64,000 nucleotides of DNA from Nostoc linckia z4. GTDB taxonomy: Bacteria > Cyanobacteriota > Cyanobacteriia > Cyanobacteriales > Nostocaceae. The notes under the pieces are model-generated. The model did not search any database. It was not told where the DNA came from and worked only from the letters and a program-made list of their open reading frames with translations. The stretch lies in the NCBI RefSeq assembly GCF_002608075.1, contig NZ_LAHA01000024.1, positions 264 to 64,263 of the forward strand, given 5' to 3'. The position numbers and the translations under genes are program-made. Shown here one piece after another: positions 32,506 through 39,544 of this stretch (within the stretch, counting starts at the first letter, position 1; the number at the start of each line of letters is the position of its first letter).

Positions 32506-33002
32506 TAAATATTAGCCTGATTATTCTAGTTGGGCAGACTTTGTGCGAATTAGCCTCCTACTGAAGCCTGAGCTAAATTTTTTTCTCTAGTTCTACTGTA
32601 TTTAGCTAGTTATTAACACGACACAAATATCAAACAACGGGAAAATACACAGTTCAAAGCCCGCCTACCAGAATATTACTGTTATTTACACTTACAAAAA
32701 ATAGTTTCAAAAACATTTCATTTTAAGTTTTGTAAATGTTAAACTAAAACCTACCCAATGAAGGATGTCTTCATTAAAATTTAAACTGTGTCAAGGTACG
32801 AACAAGATTACATTACTACACTACCGATCCCGCGAAAATTGCGGTTAACTTGACGTAGTAATAAATTAGATTCTGACTTAAGTGGCTAATTTGGGTATTA
32901 CATTATATCGCAGTCAGGACACGAATATTCCGGAAATTTCGTTGCCACGTTGTATACATTCACCAGAAAGGTGAACAGCCTCAATAACATAGAGGATTAA
33001 CC
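32506..33002. other. Long leader/promoter region of the nitrogenase-domain gene
   Basis: Nothing coding. Close to the ATG the sequence TTCACC-AGAAA-GGTGAA (32959-32975) forms a tight hairpin, and GAGGATTAACC supplies the ribosome site. No perfect NtcA box (GTA-N8-TAC) was recognised. Confidence 0.5.
32959..32975 (+). promoter_or_regulatory. Leader hairpin upstream of the Mo-nitrogenase-domain gene
   Basis: Six-base perfect stem with AGAAA loop, about 28 nt before the start codon; it may affect translation or mRNA stability. Confidence 0.4.
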
Positions 33003-33380
33003 ATGAAGGTATTTGATAATACCACAAAAAATATTTTTCTGGCAAGCTGGGTCTCAATCAATCAATCAGAGACTAGTGAAGATCGAGGAACCCAGCTAGG
33101 CCGTACTGTTTCCAAGCCCCACTGGAACATTCTTCAACCCTTAAAGCGGCTATTAGACAGCATTCAAATCCGCGATCGCCAATTAGCTCACCGATTGTGT
33201 AAACTGATTCCATCTCAGTGTCCCTTTGAGCGAGATGTCAAATTATTCGGCAAAACCCTATTTCACATTCCGCCTATGTGTAAGCTCAACCCCTTATATG
33301 AAGAAGTGGTTAGTTTACGTTTCCGAGCGTTGTGTTATCTAGCCGACGAATGTGGCGAAGATGTATCGCAGTACTGTTAA
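33003..33380 (+). CDS. Mo-dependent nitrogenase C-terminal-domain family protein
   Basis: 125 residues. The C-terminal 75 residues (LAHRLCKLIPSQCPFERDVK, IPPMCKLNPLYEEVVSLRFR, ALCYLADECGEDVSQYC) match the small cyanobacterial family named for a C-terminal extension of Mo nitrogenase; despite the name it has no nitrogenase active-site residues. Five Cys residues could bind metal or form disulfides. GAGG lies 7 nt before the ATG. Its role is unknown; it is common in nitrogen-fixing cyanobacteria. It ends at an inverted heptamer array. Confidence 0.85.
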   Translation: MKVFDNTTKNIFLASWVSINQSETSEDRGTQLGRTVSKPHWNILQPLKRLLDSIQIRDRQLAHRLCKLIPSQCPFERDVKLFGKTLFHIPPMCKLNPLYEEVVSLRFRALCYLADECGEDVSQYC

Positions 33381-33383
33381 TTA

Positions 33384-33630
33384 AGTTAGGAATTAGTTAG
33401 GAATTAGTTAGGAGTTAGGAGTTAGGAATTAGTTAGGAGTTAGGAATTAGTTAGGAGTTAGGAATTCGTTAGGAGGGAAGAGTTCAAAATAAAACTCAAA
33501 ACTCTTAATTCTTAACTCCTAACTCCCAACTCCTAACTCCTAACTCCTAACTCCTAACTCCTAACTCCTAACTCCTAACTCCTAACTCCTAACTCCTAAC
33601 TCCTAACTCCTCACTCCTCACTCCTCACTC
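33384..33630. repeat. Head-to-head TTAGGAG / CTCCTAA heptamer arrays
   Basis: Plus-oriented AGTTAGGA units (33384-33475) are followed by CTCCTAA units (33508-33630) on the same strand. The two blocks are reverse complements and could form a hairpin with arms of 80 nt or more. The array fills the gap between two convergent genes almost completely. Confidence 0.9.
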
Positions 33631-33645
33631 TTAATTGTTTTTTGA

Positions 33646-35508
33646 CTATTTTTTTCGCCATTTTTGAATGGCATCCTGAGCATCTTCGTAAGAAGCTGTT
33701 TCCTCTGGCACTAAAGTAGCAGTTTCAATTGCAGCATTGAGTTCTCCTTGAGCAGCGCGACGCTTGGCGAGATCTAAAATTTTCTCACTCCAATTATCGA
33801 TTGATTTTTGGGCGGTATCGAAGCCTGGTTGACCTGATGGTACTTTTTTAGCAACTTCGATGGCTCGATTATAGGTAGAGGCTTGTCCCGGCTGAATTAA
33901 GGCGTTAGCTGCATCTAAAAGAGTTGTATTACTGACATACTGCTTACCTTCTAGCCGCCATAGATTAATTGCCGCTTGTGCTTTAGCATAAAGCGGTTCG
34001 TTTTTGGTGATTAATCGAGCTGCGGCAATGGCACTAGCATACTGTCTTTGCTTGGCACGACCCTCTGCTAAATCTAAAATCATCCGGCTCCAAATCTTAA
34101 TATTTTCCTGAGCCTGTTCGTATAATGGCTCACCGGGTTTGATTCTCCTAGCTGTGGCGATGGCTAAGCTCAAATCACTAGCCTGAGTTTCTTGGAGCGA
34201 CATTTTTGCCAAGTCTAATACTGCTTGATTGCGCTTTTGCGATTCAGAACTCAAGGATGTTTGGACGCTAGATTGATTTTTAGGTCTAACTGGTGGGGTA
34301 GTTCCAATTGTCGAGGGGCCATTTGGGAAATTCTGGAACGCCTGAGGACTATTAGCAGTAGCATTGGGCGATGTACTTGATATCTGCTTAATCCTAAAAG
34401 TTTCTTGATTACGCAGAAAAACCACTGCGATTAAGCCTGTTACTAGCAAACTGCCTCCACCCCAGAAAATAACTTGCTTCCACAAAGGGGTGTTTGAATG
34501 ATTTCGTGGCAATTGGGAGACGTTAACTTGGGAGGAGTTAGGGATAAATCTTCCCTTGGTATTCATTCCTATGGAAGTTTCTGCTGGCTGGGAAGCTAAG
34601 CTGGTAGCTGACTGCTGGATTTGTTTGCCATTAGACTTTTGCACTTTAGAATTAATAGTTGTTTCTCCCCATTTACCTTGATTTTGAGGCGGGTCACCCA
34701 GGGGGGGAGCTGCAAGGGCAATGGCAAAGGATTCTTCGGGATAAATCACCGCTTCTGATTGGAAATCGCTTCCTATTGCCAATTTTGGTAAGATGACTTG
34801 GGGTTTGGATGGAATGATAATGGCAGGGTTTTGGATGGGACGCCAGTGATGCTGGCATAATTTGGGCACCACAAGGCTGAGGTAACTTTCTAAATCTGCT
34901 AAGTTGTTACCATTACCAGAACGCAAAGCTTCTAACAACGCTGCTGTAAAAAATCCGTGGCCTAGTTCGCTACTTTCGTGGGAAAACTGCTCTGGTTGAC
35001 AAGAAAAAATTGTTGCAAGTTCTAATTCTTGAGCTAGTTCTATGGTTTCTTCCCCCACGGGAGCATCTGCTTGTGTACCAAAAGCGCGGTTAATATCAAG
35101 CAGTAACAATACATTTAACTGGGCCATTTGGAGACTTTGCATTAGCGATCGCAATTCTATCCCTGTCTCTGGCACGAGTTCGGGGTTACCCTCCGCCGGC
35201 ATTAAGTAATCTTTGCCTTTGTAGTTGACTCCATAACCGCTAAAAAATAGCCACAGATAGTCTTGTGGTTGCCAACATGTCGCGGCCAAATCCTCAAGCA
35301 ACAGCAAAATATTTTCTTTAGTGGGATAGGTGGATCTATCTCCCATTGGTGGTGAGGTATCCGTCATTAGCAGGCAATGTCCGGGGAGAAAACCTGCCTC
35401 TGCCACCAAAATATCCTTTAGTGCCTCAGCATCTGCTTGGGCACAGCTTAAAGGTTGAAATAACTGATATTGATTGATGCCAATAGCGATCGCCCAGTAA
35501 TTTGCCAT
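33646..35508 (-). CDS. Membrane-anchored pseudo-orthocaspase (YN type) with repeat tail
   Basis: 620 residues. Residues 1-240 are a caspase/C14-like fold (YWAIAIGINQYQ, SCAQADAEALKDIL, LWLFFSGYGVN, VLLLLDINRAFG). The catalytic His of the SGHG motif is Tyr92 and the catalytic Cys of the DxC motif is Asn140, so it should be inactive. A disordered stretch (260-340) leads to one transmembrane helix (343-365), then three to four helical repeats of about 55 residues (YEQAQENIKIWSRMILDLAE; YASAIAAARLITKNEPLYAK). Pseudo-orthocaspases with this YN substitution are known in cyanobacteria; their role is unsettled. ATG 35508. Confidence 0.88.
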   Translation of the reverse strand: MANYWAIAIGINQYQLFQPLSCAQADAEALKDILVAEAGFLPGHCLLMTDTSPPMGDRSTYPTKENILLLLEDLAATCWQPQDYLWLFFSGYGVNYKGKDYLMPAEGNPELVPETGIELRSLMQSLQMAQLNVLLLLDINRAFGTQADAPVGEETIELAQELELATIFSCQPEQFSHESSELGHGFFTAALLEALRSGNGNNLADLESYLSLVVPKLCQHHWRPIQNPAIIIPSKPQVILPKLAIGSDFQSEAVIYPEESFAIALAAPPLGDPPQNQGKWGETTINSKVQKSNGKQIQQSATSLASQPAETSIGMNTKGRFIPNSSQVNVSQLPRNHSNTPLWKQVIFWGGGSLLVTGLIAVVFLRNQETFRIKQISSTSPNATANSPQAFQNFPNGPSTIGTTPPVRPKNQSSVQTSLSSESQKRNQAVLDLAKMSLQETQASDLSLAIATARRIKPGEPLYEQAQENIKIWSRMILDLAEGRAKQRQYASAIAAARLITKNEPLYAKAQAAINLWRLEGKQYVSNTTLLDAANALIQPGQASTYNRAIEVAKKVPSGQPGFDTAQKSIDNWSEKILDLAKRRAAQGELNAAIETATLVPEETASYEDAQDAIQKWRKK

Positions 35509-35709
35509 CGCGCTCTTTGTCGGTTATTGTTTGCTCGTCTGAAAATTGTGGTTGGCTTTATCCAAAAAACAAAGCTAACCTGATGTTTTCTAGTCTAGGT
35601 GATTCTCATCGAATCTTAAGATAAAATGTAATTTTTATTACGTTAGTTGACCGGAAAATACTTTCACCTAATTTCAATTGACAGATCGTTATTCAGGAGC
35701 TATAAGGTC

Positions 35710-36156
35710 ATGAGCCAAATTTTTGCTCAGATACCATCATCGATCGCTTCCTTTTCATTTATTAGCCAAATTGCCAAAAAAATCCGGATAGTTCCTTTAG
35801 CATTTTTGCTCATATCTACTGTTCCTGCGTGGTTTTTCACCGAAGCGATCGCCCCTCAAGTTGTGCGAGCTTACACCGCCAGAGTTGACCTAGCCATCGA
35901 TCGCCTGCCAGAAGAAAACTACGAAACCATTCTGCGACGAGCAGAAGCGGCCGCTAGAGCAGCTGCTCAGAGGAGCTTCGACCAAGATATTTTAGTAACA
36001 GATGTTTCAATCATTATCTCCGTACAAAGTTATGGAGCGATCGCACCAGTTCTAACATTAGAAGTCAGTCGCCCAGAATGGCGCAGCCGTCCGGACGCTC
36101 AAAATTGGGCAACTTACTATAAAACTGCGCGATCGCTACTGTTCTTTGAAAAATGA
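35710..36156 (+). CDS. Conserved cyanobacterial protein with one N-terminal membrane helix
   Basis: 148 residues from ATG 35710, preceded by AGGAG; an in-frame TTG at 35647 would add 21 residues but lacks such a site. Basic IAKKIRI precedes a hydrophobic helix (VPLAFLLISTVPAWFFTEAI, about 28-47), which may be a signal anchor. The remainder (AIDRLPEENYETILRRAEAA; DILVTDVSIIISVQSYGAIAP) looks like a small alpha/beta domain in the periplasm. No named family; it is monocistronic. Confidence 0.7.
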   Translation: MSQIFAQIPSSIASFSFISQIAKKIRIVPLAFLLISTVPAWFFTEAIAPQVVRAYTARVDLAIDRLPEENYETILRRAEAAARAAAQRSFDQDILVTDVSIIISVQSYGAIAPVLTLEVSRPEWRSRPDAQNWATYYKTARSLLFFEK

Positions 36157-36176
36157 TCGAGGGGATGAAAGAGGCA

Positions 36177-36312
36177 GGGGGCACAGAGATAGGGGAAAAG
36201 GTTAAAGGTTAAAGGGAAAAGGAATAAATTTAATCTTTACCCTTTTCCCCAGTTGGTGAGCTTGTCGAACCATACCCCTTTCCCCATACCCTGTTTACCC
36301 TGTTTGGCCAAT
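36177..36312. repeat. Purine/pyrimidine inverted repeat related to the family B interior
   Basis: GGGGAAAAGGTTAAAGG (left) is complementary to CTTTACCCTTTTCCCC (right) around ATAAATTTAAT. The same purine/pyrimidine organisation occurs in the elements at 16587, 41270 and 56711, but their ends are not seen. Confidence 0.5.
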
Positions 36313-36404
36313 GCCTTTACTTAATTCTTGGCTAAATTGGCGTCCTTGGTGTCAGTGAATGGCCTAAAATAAAAAGGTTGTCAAAAATCACTATATCTGC
36401 TGAC

Positions 36405-36578
36405 ATGGCTGTTCCTAAGAAGAAAACTTCCAAATCAAAACGAGATAAACGTCGGGCTACTTGGAGGCACAAAGCTGCTATTGAAGCTCAGAAAGCTCTA
36501 TCTCTGGGCAAGTCTATTTTGACTGGACGTTCTACATTTGTTTATCCATCTGCTGAAGACGAGGAAGAAGAATCATAA
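36405..36578 (+). CDS. rpmF: 50S ribosomal protein bL32
   Basis: 57 residues from ATG 36405: [20 protein letters not shown] at the start, [14 protein letters not shown] and an acidic tail (EDEEEES). A frame extends to 36378, but the canonical MAVPKKK start is at 36405. This is the Cys-less bL32 type, which lacks the zinc CxxC pairs of other forms. Part of the large ribosomal subunit. Followed by a long-range inverted repeat (36583-36686). Confidence 0.97.
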
Positions 36579-36582
36579 TTTT

Positions 36583-36686
36583 CCAATCAGGAAAAGCATG
36601 AACGGCATCGATAGGTTTAATGGGCAGAGTCATGGCTCAAATTTATCGCTCATGGATAAATGCTTTTTCTTGGCTTTCCTGATTGG
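36583..36686 (+). ncRNA. Structured 3' region of rpmF
   Basis: CCAATCAGGAAA (36583-36594) pairs perfectly with TTTCCTGATTGG (36675-36686), and inside it AAAAGCA (36592-36598) can pair with TGCTTTT (36661-36667). The closed region of about 100 nt begins 5 nt after the stop codon. It may be a processed 3' UTR, a terminator of unusual size, or a palindromic repeat; no T run follows. Confidence 0.45.
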
Positions 36687-37162
36687 ATAATCAATTATTG
36701 ATGGTCTACACAAGCTTATTAAATTGCAAAAAATTGGTAGTGAGTAATTGGGAACATCCATTACCCATTACCTATCAATTATCAGTAATGATTGGTAAGC
36801 TTATGTGGTTCCAGGTTATAGATTTTCTGGTTAAGACCGTTCATAGCTATTAGTCATTTACAAATAACCAACGACAAAGCACAAAGTCTCTAGCAATATT
36901 TTGCAGGGTGTGTCTGGTTACGTCGATAGAGAAGTGATTCGCCGTTTTCCCTAGCCTTTGGTTCTCTCATTCCCCAGGTACAGAACTCAATTAAGAGAGG
37001 ACAACTGGCAAATGACAAATGATAAAAGATGACCAGATAAAGTAACTACGGAATTTCAATGTTTTTTATCCTAATCATATTCAAGGGTAAATTATCTGGC
37101 GCTGTTGACAACTCAGCACAAAATTCTGCAAATATTTTGAGAAAACTTACTTTTCTCCCATT
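36687..37162. other. Intergenic region with a possible unannotated RNA
   Basis: STRR-like ACAAATAACCAACGACAAAG units occur near 36860. 36895-37015 is more G+C-rich than its surroundings; GTTCTCTC (about 36961) can pair with GAGAGGAC (about 36995) including one G-U pair. A small RNA is possible but not shown. Confidence 0.3.
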
Positions 37163-37768
37163 ATGTTAGGAAAATTCTTTGAGAAGCCAGGAAAAGAAAA
37201 TAACGAACGCGTTCCTCCAGGTCAACATTTAGCCAAGGGTTTCCCTGTATTAACTTACGGCGCAACTCCGCAAGTTGGTATTGAAGAATGGGAATTTCGG
37301 GTTTGGGGTTTAGCAAAGCCAGCTACTTTTAATTGGTCAGACTTTATGGCGCTACCTCAACATGAGTTCACAGCGGATTTTCACTGCGTAACCCGTTGGT
37401 CTAAACTCGATGTCAAATGGACTGGGATTAAAGTAACAGATTTTATGGCTCTCATTGAGCTAGACCCAAAAGTAGCCTACATTATGGAACACTGCTATGG
37501 TGGCTACACTACAAATATTTCTATCGAAGACTTTATGCGGGAAGAAAATTTCTTTGCCTTTAAAGTTTTTGGTGAAGATCTTCCAGTTGAACATGGTGGG
37601 CCGATGCGGCTAGTCGTTCCTCATCTCTACGCCTGGAAAAGTGCTAAGTGGATTAATGGTTTAGAGTTTTTAGCCAGTGAAGAACTAGGTTTTTGGGAAC
37701 GCAATGGCTACCACCACCGTGGCGAACCTTGGAAAGAGGAGCGTTATAGCAATGTATTTGGATTTTAA
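37163..37768 (+). CDS. Sulfite-oxidase-like molybdopterin protein (YuiH type)
   Basis: 201 residues. Oxidoreductase molybdopterin-binding domain with the molybdenum-ligand Cys75 in FHCVTRWSKLDVKW, followed by EHCYGGYTTNISIEDFM and GGPMRLVVPHLYAWKSAKWI. It is a short stand-alone form without signal peptide, dimerisation domain or haem, similar to B. subtilis YuiH. Substrate unknown. Its stop codon abuts a large inverted heptamer array. Confidence 0.9.
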   Translation: MLGKFFEKPGKENNERVPPGQHLAKGFPVLTYGATPQVGIEEWEFRVWGLAKPATFNWSDFMALPQHEFTADFHCVTRWSKLDVKWTGIKVTDFMALIELDPKVAYIMEHCYGGYTTNISIEDFMREENFFAFKVFGEDLPVEHGGPMRLVVPHLYAWKSAKWINGLEFLASEELGFWERNGYHHRGEPWKEERYSNVFGF

Positions 37769-38160
37769 GAATTAGGAATTAGGAGTTAGGAGTTATGAGT
37801 GAGGAGTGAAGAATTATAAGTTTTGAGTTATGAGTGAGGAGTGAGGAATTAAGAGTTATGAGTGAGGAGTGAAGGATTATAAGTTTTGAGTGAGGAGTGA
37901 GAAGTGAGGAATTATGAGTTATGAGTCATAAGTTATGAATAATAAAGTTGTTAATTAAAAATTTCTGACTGCAAACTCCTAACTCCTAGCTAACTCCTAA
38001 CTCCTAACTCATAACTCCTAACTCCTAGCTAACTCCTAACTCCTAACTCATAACTCCTCACTCATAATTCATAACTCCTCACTCATAACTCATAACTCCT
38101 AACTCCTCACTCATAACTCCTCACTCATAACCCCTCACTCCCAACTCTTTACTCATAACT
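37769..38160. repeat. Head-to-head heptamer arrays (GAGTTAGGA/GTGAGGA then ACTCCTAACTCAT)
   Basis: Units of AGGAGTT, ATGAGTG and GAGTGAG (37772-37940) are followed after about 40 bp by complementary ACTCCTA, ACTCATA and CTCCTCA units (37973-38158). The region fills the gap between two convergent genes from the first stop codon to 2 bp before the other, and could fold into a hairpin with arms of more than 150 nt. Confidence 0.9.
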
Positions 38161-38161
38161 T

Positions 38162-39544
38162 TTAACCCAAAAGTTTTTTGATGAGAGGCAATTTGTTTTT
38201 ATATGGAGCATAGCGCCATTTTAAATCTAGCCAAAAGGAGTTTTGCAATACGCTTTTTTCATGAGAAAAGGTGTCAAAACTAGCTTTGCCATGATAGTTA
38301 CCAATACCACTATCTCCTACTCCTCCGAAGGGTAAAGATGGGACTCCAACATGCATGATTGTATCGTTGATACAAACTCCACCTGATGAAGTTTCCTGCA
38401 AAACTCGCTTTTGGAGGTTTTTATTTTGAGAAAATAAATATAATGCTAGGGGTTTTGGTCTAGAGTTAATCAAGGCGATAACTTCTGCAATATCACTGTA
38501 TTCAATTACTGGCAAAATAGGGCCAAAAATTTCTTCCTGCATTACAGAAGCTTCTAAGGAAATATTATCAATTATTGTAGGGGCGATATAACGCTCTGAA
38601 GATTTAGTTTCTCCACCGAGAATAACTTCGCCATCTTTCAGAAATTTAACCAACCTATCAAAGTGTTTTTGGCTAATAATCCTGGCATAATCAGAACTAT
38701 TTGCCGGATTTTCTCCATAAAATTCTTTGAGGCATTTTTCGATACCATTGATTAAATCTTTTTTGATTTTTTTATCTACTAATAGATAGTCAGGGGCGAT
38801 ACATGTTTGCCCAGCATTAATAAATTTGCCCCAAGTAATTCGTCTGACAGTGTGTTCGAGATTAATGTCTGTATCGACAATACAAGGACTTTTACCACCC
38901 AATTCTAAAGTAACTGGTGTGAGATGTTTTGCCGCTGCTGTCATGACAATTTTGCCCACGGCTGTGCCACCAGTAAAAAATATATGGTCAAATTTTTCTG
39001 CTAGTAGTTTTTCACTGACTTCTATACCTCCTTCCACTGCTGTAATATAAGGTTGCGGGAAATATTTACTAATAATTTTATTAACAATACTAGAAGTGTA
39101 GGAAGCAATTTCTGAAGGTTTAATAATTGCACAATTTCCAGCGGCGATCGCACCTACTAGAGGTGAAATAGCTAACTGAAATGGATAGTTCCAAGGGGTG
39201 ATAATTAAGATAACTCCCAGTGGTTCTGGATAAATGCGGGCTGAATATGAAAAAAAATCTAAGGAAACTGGTGCTTTTTTCGGTTTTGCCCAAGTTTTGA
39301 TATGTTTGATGGCATAATCAATTTCTTTAACGACGGCAATTTCTGTTAGATAAGTCTCTACTACTGGTTTATGTAAATCTGCTTCTAATGCCTCGATTAT
39401 TTCTTGTGTGTGTTCAATGATTCCTTGCTTAAGTTTTTGCAGTTGTTCAATGCGAAAATTTATATCTTTAGTTTTGCCTGTTTGAAAAAACTCTCGCTGA
39501 TTTTGGATAATTTTGCCAATGTTGGATAATTCAGTGGTCATCAT
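38162..39544 (-). CDS. Aldehyde dehydrogenase, class 3-like (fatty-aldehyde type)
   Basis: 460 residues, typical of the short class 3 family that lacks the N-terminal extension. ITPWNYPFQLAISPLVGAIA, FTGGTAVGKIV (NAD pocket), general base Glu214 in LELGGKSP and nucleophile Cys248 in NAGQTCIAPDY. The C-terminus (residues 425-460, basic, with LKWRYAPYKNKLPLIKKLLG) may touch the membrane. Cyanobacterial relatives oxidise fatty aldehydes; that is inferred. Start MM at 39544/39541. Confidence 0.94.
   Translation of the reverse strand: MMTTELSNIGKIIQNQREFFQTGKTKDINFRIEQLQKLKQGIIEHTQEIIEALEADLHKPVVETYLTEIAVVKEIDYAIKHIKTWAKPKKAPVSLDFFSYSARIYPEPLGVILIITPWNYPFQLAISPLVGAIAAGNCAIIKPSEIASYTSSIVNKIISKYFPQPYITAVEGGIEVSEKLLAEKFDHIFFTGGTAVGKIVMTAAAKHLTPVTLELGGKSPCIVDTDINLEHTVRRITWGKFINAGQTCIAPDYLLVDKKIKKDLINGIEKCLKEFYGENPANSSDYARIISQKHFDRLVKFLKDGEVILGGETKSSERYIAPTIIDNISLEASVMQEEIFGPILPVIEYSDIAEVIALINSRPKPLALYLFSQNKNLQKRVLQETSSGGVCINDTIMHVGVPSLPFGGVGDSGIGNYHGKASFDTFSHEKSVLQNSFWLDLKWRYAPYKNKLPLIKKLLG

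Follow-up and report, generated by a model that had tools for sequence, protein, structure and literature searches.

A heptamer array pair in a Nostoc linckia gap follows a G-rich-first polarity that is independent of gene direction

Why should the gap between two convergent genes be filled with heptamer repeats that face each other in opposite orientations? The question is raised by a 64,000-nucleotide stretch of the Nostoc linckia z4 genome (contig NZ_LAHA01000024.1; hereafter the window), in which such repeats occupy, almost end to end, a gap at 37769-38161 between the stop codons of two convergent genes (site 2); a second such gap in the window is called site 1. An earlier note on this DNA had described an inverted arrangement of heptamer arrays at site 2, and family 7-mers, Tandem Repeats Finder (TRF) and open reading frames (ORFs) confirm both the coordinates and the arrangement. 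Site 2 is an inverted pair of short tandemly repeated repetitive (STRR) sequences that follows a polarity rule broader than the published one. Read on either strand, the G-rich array comes first and the C-rich array second (G-first), and this polarity is the unusual feature of these repeats. The pair comprises the following parts.

37769-37926, + strand: left arm, a degenerate AGGAGTT, GAGTGAG, ATGAGTT heptamer array with its G-rich strand on +, beginning directly after the stop codon.
37927-37971, no strand: spacer of 45 bp, A+T-rich, made of decayed heptamers and then unique sequence.
37972-38160, - strand: right arm, an AACTCCT, CTCACTC, AACTCAT array with its G-rich strand on -, beginning directly after the stop codon of the - gene.

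The borders of the arms were set by family 7-mers. The right arm is the reverse complement of the left-arm heptamer family, and both arms abut stop codons, the + ORF ending at 37768 and the - ORF at 38162. TRF gave the left arm a score of 243 with a 63-bp higher-order unit (90% matches) and the right arm a score of 220 with a 21-bp unit (81% matches). The commonest variants are unlike between the arms (AGGAGTG, 34 on the left; AGGAGTT, 64 on the right), and the dominant units AGGAGTT, AGGAGTG and AGTTATG are free of GGG. The STRR heptanucleotide repeats of heterocystous cyanobacteria, described by Mazel in 1990, are reportedly degenerate 7-bp units that lie between genes and occur in many variants in the Nostocales. 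Site 2 agrees with that definition in its tandem degenerate 7-bp units (TRF period 7 and multiples) and in its intergenic placement (array bases make up 0.14% of coding DNA and 3.9-9.3% of gaps in the survey described below); its closest relatives, including those of the site 2 flanking protein, are Nostoc. A fixed G-first order of pairs is not known to belong to the STRR description and is a feature of the present arrays.

The survey covered the window and 120 stretches of 20 kb from its genome, together 2.464 Mb of 9.0 Mb, on contigs named by an array search and not drawn at random. It was built in two stages: a first sample of 1.664 Mb, and 0.8 Mb added once the polarity rule and all definitions had been frozen. 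Lag matching (periods 6-9) served to detect arrays; their orientation was set by the G versus C count, and those with equal counts were left out of orientation counts. Genes came from a home-made hexamer caller, which on one annotated 50-kb stretch recovered 42 of 48 annotated stops, with 42 of 43 calls annotated and 34 starts in agreement. The first sample held 603 segments of period 7, 115 of period 8, 76 of period 9 and 34 of period 6; period 7 was more numerous there than each of periods 5, 6 and 8-11, and a mononucleotide shuffle of the same 1.664 Mb contained no period-7 segment. Both orientations were present in 228 of the 612 array-bearing gaps.

Polarity was nearly uniform among these pairs. 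Seven heptamer families were compared in the first sample, and each kept to one order, with few mixed cases, in every gap class that had pairs. Over the whole sample 157 of 160 family rows with both orientations were G-first, a count that does not represent independent gaps because family rows overlap (AGGAGTT, AAGTCAG and AATTCAG have arrays in common); the 0.8 Mb added after freezing gave 59 of 60. Counting neighbouring arrays within one gap irrespective of family, we found 228 G-then-C pairs, 10 C-then-G and 84 of equal orientation. At spacers of ≤60 bp the count was 146 G-then-C versus 1 C-then-G, and 9 to 0 when the pair also lay >100 bp from any ORF; 7 of the 10 reversed pairs had spacers >200 bp. 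A second genome of the genus (G006) gave 11 to 0 in favour of G-first at spacers of ≤60 bp, 15 to 2 at any spacing and 14 of 14 pairs by the seven families. Loci from other species gave 9 to 0 at spacers of ≤60 bp (2 Nostoc, 6 other Nostocales and 1 outside, with the orthologous gap discussed below included). Two GGATTTT / AAAATCT inverted pairs lie between the tRNA genes of one cluster (G000:C1, ~240.2-240.5 kb and 243.5-243.7 kb), and both are G-first. One of the four tRNA genes that flank them has no assigned anticodon; the pairs provide a test case for the polarity rule without translation.

The same polarity is apparent relative to gene ends. Within 50 bp of an ORF the G-rich strand points outward in 510 of 557 arrays (354 of 383 at stops, 156 of 174 at starts). 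Within 25 bp, outward orientation holds for 101 of 101 arrays in convergent gaps and, with only long, high-scoring flanking genes counted, for 133 of 139 at stops and 49 of 53 at starts. The rule decays with distance, earlier at stops than at starts (21/59 versus 43/48 at 50-100 bp in tandem gaps), and beyond 100 bp from ORFs orientation is random (112/220). The outward share climbs with G/C skew (65/89, 94/103, 121/125, 230/240), and 56 of 61 arrays that lack any GG obey. Period-7 arrays near ORFs show no dependence on A versus T (A-first 216 vs 255). Periods 6, 8 and 9 also follow the outward rule (12/12, 72/74 and 38/40), with an outward strand that is likewise A-rich (12:0, 72:2, 35:5), A and G being separable only at period 7. 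G-outward arrays are densest just after stops, covering ~19% of intergenic bases at 15-45 bp downstream and ~1% beyond 200 bp. This is a ~15-fold enrichment over 200-300 bp, whereas the opposite orientation falls only mildly, from 2.2-6.4% at 45-500 bp to 0.9-2.2% within 45 bp. G-inward arrays are scarce near divergent starts, at 0-0.6% of bases in the first 100 bp against 3.4-4.0% at 150-300 bp. In the second genome, by the seven families, 32 of 32 arrays within 50 bp were outward. Two other candidate sources of bias were rejected. Seeding at stop codons fails in that the stops before abutting arrays (TAG 51, TAA 77, TGA 27) resemble those of all called genes (562, 977, 377). Replication-strand bias was suggested by the matches first listed in the second genome, which all looked +, yet 400 kb of it held 49 + and 52 - arrays.

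Convergent genes are not special in this respect. The earlier note had tied inverted arrays to convergent gaps, a link that called for an enrichment of orientation switches there, and none was found: of the array-bearing gaps, 41 of the 108 between convergent genes held both orientations, as did 153 of the 406 tandem ones and 34 of the 98 divergent ones (Fisher p = 0.91). The same test by family 7-mers gave 22/86, 101/342 and 22/88, and the second genome gave 2/19, 10/27 and 2/13, respectively. A lean towards convergent gaps appeared only for the AGGAGTT family by itself, in the first sample (7/12, against 12/40 in tandem and 1/8 in divergent gaps). Pairs being equally frequent in tandem and divergent gaps, convergence was rejected as their cause, and the inverted arrangement is independent of gene direction.

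Arrays that stand alone bear a trace of the remaining unit, their 3′ flanks being C-rich (skew -0.135) and their 5′ flanks G-rich (+0.100). Beyond rule-obeying single-orientation arrays at stops, complementary same-family 7-mers exceed same-strand ones in 83 of 118 informative cases (p = 1e-5); at starts the excess is less clear (37/60, p = 0.09), and 70 of the 172 such arrays at stops have no complementary partner. Our reading is that a single array belongs to one polar unit, whose second arm is often too weak to be detected or derives from another family.

Taken as a whole, our account, which we consider somewhat probable, is that site 2 is an STRR array pair grown by 7-bp slippage, each arm separately, within a unit of fixed polarity. 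Two heptanucleotide arrays would arise in a single intergenic gap, one in each half, and lengthen independently by repeated slippage, which is probably the growth step. The common unit would consist of a G-skewed array, a short spacer and a C-skewed array, so that each strand would read G-rich first. Where such a unit fills a gap, the arm adjoining a gene start or stop would have its G-rich strand pointing away, and the gene-end rule may arise because the space beside a gene cannot accommodate the wrong arm. The potential to form a giant hairpin would be a by-product of two same-family arms, neither copied from arm to arm nor tuned for pairing. As the cause of the polarity we prefer strand-asymmetric growth, or template switching that would favour the nascent strand when it is G-rich at its entry into the unit, to selection for a terminator, a quadruplex or translation. 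We give a strand-asymmetric mutational cause about an even chance, slightly favouring it over selection, for which we put the chance somewhat below even.

That one arm was instead copied from the other by foldback (snap-back) repair, the mechanism put forward in the earlier note, is very unlikely. Fixed polarity could result if only G-rich nascent strands snap back, arms of one family make up 90 of the 228 opposite-facing pairs where 34 are expected, and the arms of sites 1 and 2 share more 12-mers than most foreign pairs (rank 0.92 and 0.75). Over all loci, however, own arms are neither more alike nor better at pairing than foreign arms. In the AGGAGTT family (37 pairs), the two arms of a locus have no more 9-, 12- or 16-mers in common than arms taken from different loci (permutation p = 0.67-0.86; mean rank 0.44-0.51), which differs from the mirror copies of a foldback inverted duplication. 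The row pooling all families was set aside, a rank over mixed families having no meaning. Five families show no excess of own-arm similarity at k = 9, 12 or 16 (p at least 0.50 throughout), and own arms pair no better than foreign ones (p = 0.92; p = 0.89-0.99 in four families), with a pairing rank of 0.86 at site 1 and only 0.17 at site 2. The leading variants differ between the site 2 arms, a relative (L018) faces a GGGAGTT left arm with an AACTCAT right arm, and 138 of the 228 pairs combine unlike families. An old shared palindromic seed is possible because the arms are linked at the level of the repeat family. The note's broader appeal to selection or a copying mechanism holds in part: the arrangement is recurrent and non-random, and therefore some biased process or selection must act, but foldback copying is unsupported over all loci. 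A mobile element resembling a miniature inverted-repeat transposable element, or a small dispersed repeat with heptamer ends, is the least probable of the explanations considered. In the AAAGGGG family the arms are often separated by a similar A+T loop of ~12 bp (ATTAAATTTATT and its variants), for which a loose pattern gave 25 matches; against this, the spacers of 20 AGGAGTT pairs in the first sample span 0 to 348 bp, those inspected looking unrelated by eye, and the orthologous gap in Nostoc mostly keeps its arms while the middle varies (also by eye).

Could the pair be functional as nucleic acid? A selected bidirectional terminator or mRNA-end hairpin between convergent genes would fit the strong predicted fold of the site 2 gap as a single RNA strand (-158.6 kcal/mol vs -84.9 ± 5.5 in 100 shuffles; z = -13.4), the peak of G-outward arrays right after stops and the G-first lean of multi-copy hairpins outside arrays (below). 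We nevertheless find it unlikely. A simple consensus scan (G+C-rich stem plus T run) returned 0 terminator-like sites in 37700-38250, Rfam returned 0 families at gathering score within 33000-39000, pairs are equally common in tandem and divergent gaps, and own arms pair no better than foreign ones. Single-copy intergenic hairpins have no polarity (88 G-first vs 92 C-first); within 60 bp of stops they lean A-first, as terminators should (36 vs 20), without G polarity (31 vs 30), whereas period-7 arrays near ORFs lack the A-first lean. Polarity as a general property of hairpins or terminators was rejected on these single-copy hairpins. Alternatively, selection could act on G-rich strand structures, through quadruplex or RNA effects that a gene tolerates on its coding strand past the stop and on its non-coding strand ahead of the start. 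One report describes the same orientation preference in Xanthomonas and Nostoc PCC 7120 for heptamers that form quadruplexes (PMC4692102), and the rarity of G-inward arrays near divergent starts points the same way. This explanation is doubtful: quadruplexes are not needed for polarity, because arrays without GG obey, and the G-quadruplex was rejected as the cause. The rule is equal at starts and stops and holds, in two cases, between tRNA genes, and the ~15-fold enrichment of G-outward arrays after stops, set against the mild depletion of the other orientation, makes avoidance alone insufficient.

Several observations weigh against the account of separate slippage within a polar unit. Left and right arrays co-occur beyond chance (odds ratio 6.4 in gaps of 100-600 bp), and the excess of same-family arms means that the two are not wholly independent. 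Polarity is not wholly limited to tandem arrays, as multi-copy hairpins outside them (GTAGAGACG and others) lean G-first, 53 to 25. No homogeneity gradient that would mark polar growth was found along arrays (p = 0.26), so that polar growth visible as an internal gradient was rejected, and the periodicity excess beyond the 5′ edge is weak (0.274 vs 0.252, p = 0.026). Among all arrays near ORFs in the second genome, 49 of 65 obey the outward rule (40 of 45 strongly skewed and 9 of 20 weakly skewed ones); the rule-breakers there (G006:C1) include AATTACG and AATTTTG arrays, in which the numbers of G and C are almost the same or very small. In small samples from elsewhere, 18 of 24 arrays near ORFs obey in Nostoc, 23 of 29 in other Nostocales and 4 of 7 in non-Nostocales, or 6/9, 15/19 and 2/5 with the orthologous gap removed, and at any spacing the other-species loci give 17 G-then-C and 5 C-then-G pairs. 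Four 50-kb stretches of the 485-kb Nostoc plasmid AP018319 held 5 arrays, 2 pointing away and 3 toward, which are too few to judge; a DNA search of plasmids, run with the simple-repeat filter on, gave no match.

Part of the polarity rule is already published for quadruplex-forming heptamers. Rehm 2015 describes the heptamers GGGAATC / GGGGA(C/T)T, which occur in Xanthomonas and Nostoc PCC 7120, as quadruplex-forming units, with inverted pairs in 'convergent orientation' numbering 70 and 75 in two Xanthomonas and few pairs in PCC 7120, and states that their functional role remains to be elucidated (PMC4692102). Both site 2 arms, like 510 of the 557 arrays in the genome sample, share with those heptamers a G-rich strand that is the coding one downstream of a gene and the non-coding one upstream. 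Unlike them, the dominant site 2 units lack runs of three or more G. The present rule extends beyond them to units without GG, to periods 6-9, to pairs of unlike families and to a 146:1 preference at close spacing. Two further heptamer systems are comparable. The P6b stem-loop of the Nostoc trnL intron (Kaasalainen 2015) has a stem built of heptamers, Class I TDNGATT and Class II NNTGAGT, and varies by indels of whole 7-nt units on one side or on both (PMC4476775). It is unlike site 2 in being short and within a group I intron, with a structure tied to a functional RNA. The TAACTGA repeats of Beggiatoaceae and cyanobacteria (MacGregor 2015) likewise form intergenic heptamer arrays; they differ in that most of those in the one Beggiatoaceae genome examined precede start codons, with one inverted case reported there (PMC4679880). 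In the open-access literature searched, as far as its text was accessible and with the founding STRR papers outside that scope, no statement of a general polarity rule was found.

What began as a curiosity of one gap thus becomes a rule that can be put in numbers and is seldom broken in this genome. The functions usually assigned to such repeats do not readily account for its 146:1 polarity in close pairs, for its equality at starts and stops or for its persistence where G-runs are lacking; these features point to an unrecognised asymmetry in the growth or survival of intergenic repeats. If the rule extends to other phyla, as the Xanthomonas report suggests, the abundance of heptamers in bacterial gaps becomes a testable question. 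A more speculative extension, to which we assign a rather low probability, would be a general strand law for bacterial intergenic short tandem repeats. Whatever the family or period (6-9), units would run G-rich then C-rich on both strands, with the G-rich strand outward from functional sequence as in telomere repeats. Such a law would stem from strand-asymmetric repeat growth or end-processing, not from quadruplexes, terminators or translation.

Relatives of the site 2 locus extend these observations across species. Of 80 relative loci fetched, 46 had a gap of ≤700 bp between both orthologous genes. Both family orientations are held by 15 of 21 Nostoc-type gaps (window included), and all 15 are G-first; these 15 share descent, and L022 has only three 7-mers. 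The arms of L018 are unequal, a long GGGAGTT left arm (123 7-mers) facing a short AACTCAT right arm (37). Other genera carry different repeats in the same order by eye, such as GGGCATG then CATTGCCC in L032 and GGATTTT then AAAATCT in L049, and in some of their loci the gap is without an array (also by eye). The gaps of L014 and L015 (73 and 87 bp) are, by eye, one 7-bp unit apart in each of two unrelated sequences, differences that fit slippage in steps of 7; such steps seem to need no pre-existing STRR.

The two genes that converge on the gap of site 1 (33381-33645) are a Mo-nitro_C gene on the + strand (PF06967) and, on the - strand, a caspase-domain gene (PF00656). The arms of site 1 and the genes flanking site 2 are as follows.

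33406-33466, + strand: site 1 left arm, AGGAGTT family, with polarity as at site 2.
33500-33630, - strand: site 1 right arm, AACTCCT, with polarity as at site 2 (TRF, family 7-mers).
37163-37768, + strand: gene flanking site 2, Oxidored_molyb domain protein (molybdopterin oxidoreductase), 201 aa.
38162-39544, - strand: gene flanking site 2, aldehyde dehydrogenase, 460 aa.

Some minor observations accompany these loci. In L063 and L041 the left and right arrays come from unlike families and the order is still G-rich then C-rich. In L015 an unrelated sequence near a heptamer arm, GGTTACA, carries a 7-bp duplication. AAAGGGG...CCTTT pairs with a near-identical 12-bp A+T loop (ATTAAATTTATT and kin), as in a dispersed hairpin element, occur at G000:C1:3636-3719 and 370882-370974 and in sample block C71b:6203-6281. 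Unrelated palindromic sequences of ~25-30 bp, together with longer inserts, lie in the middle of the gap in L012, L016, L020 and L060.
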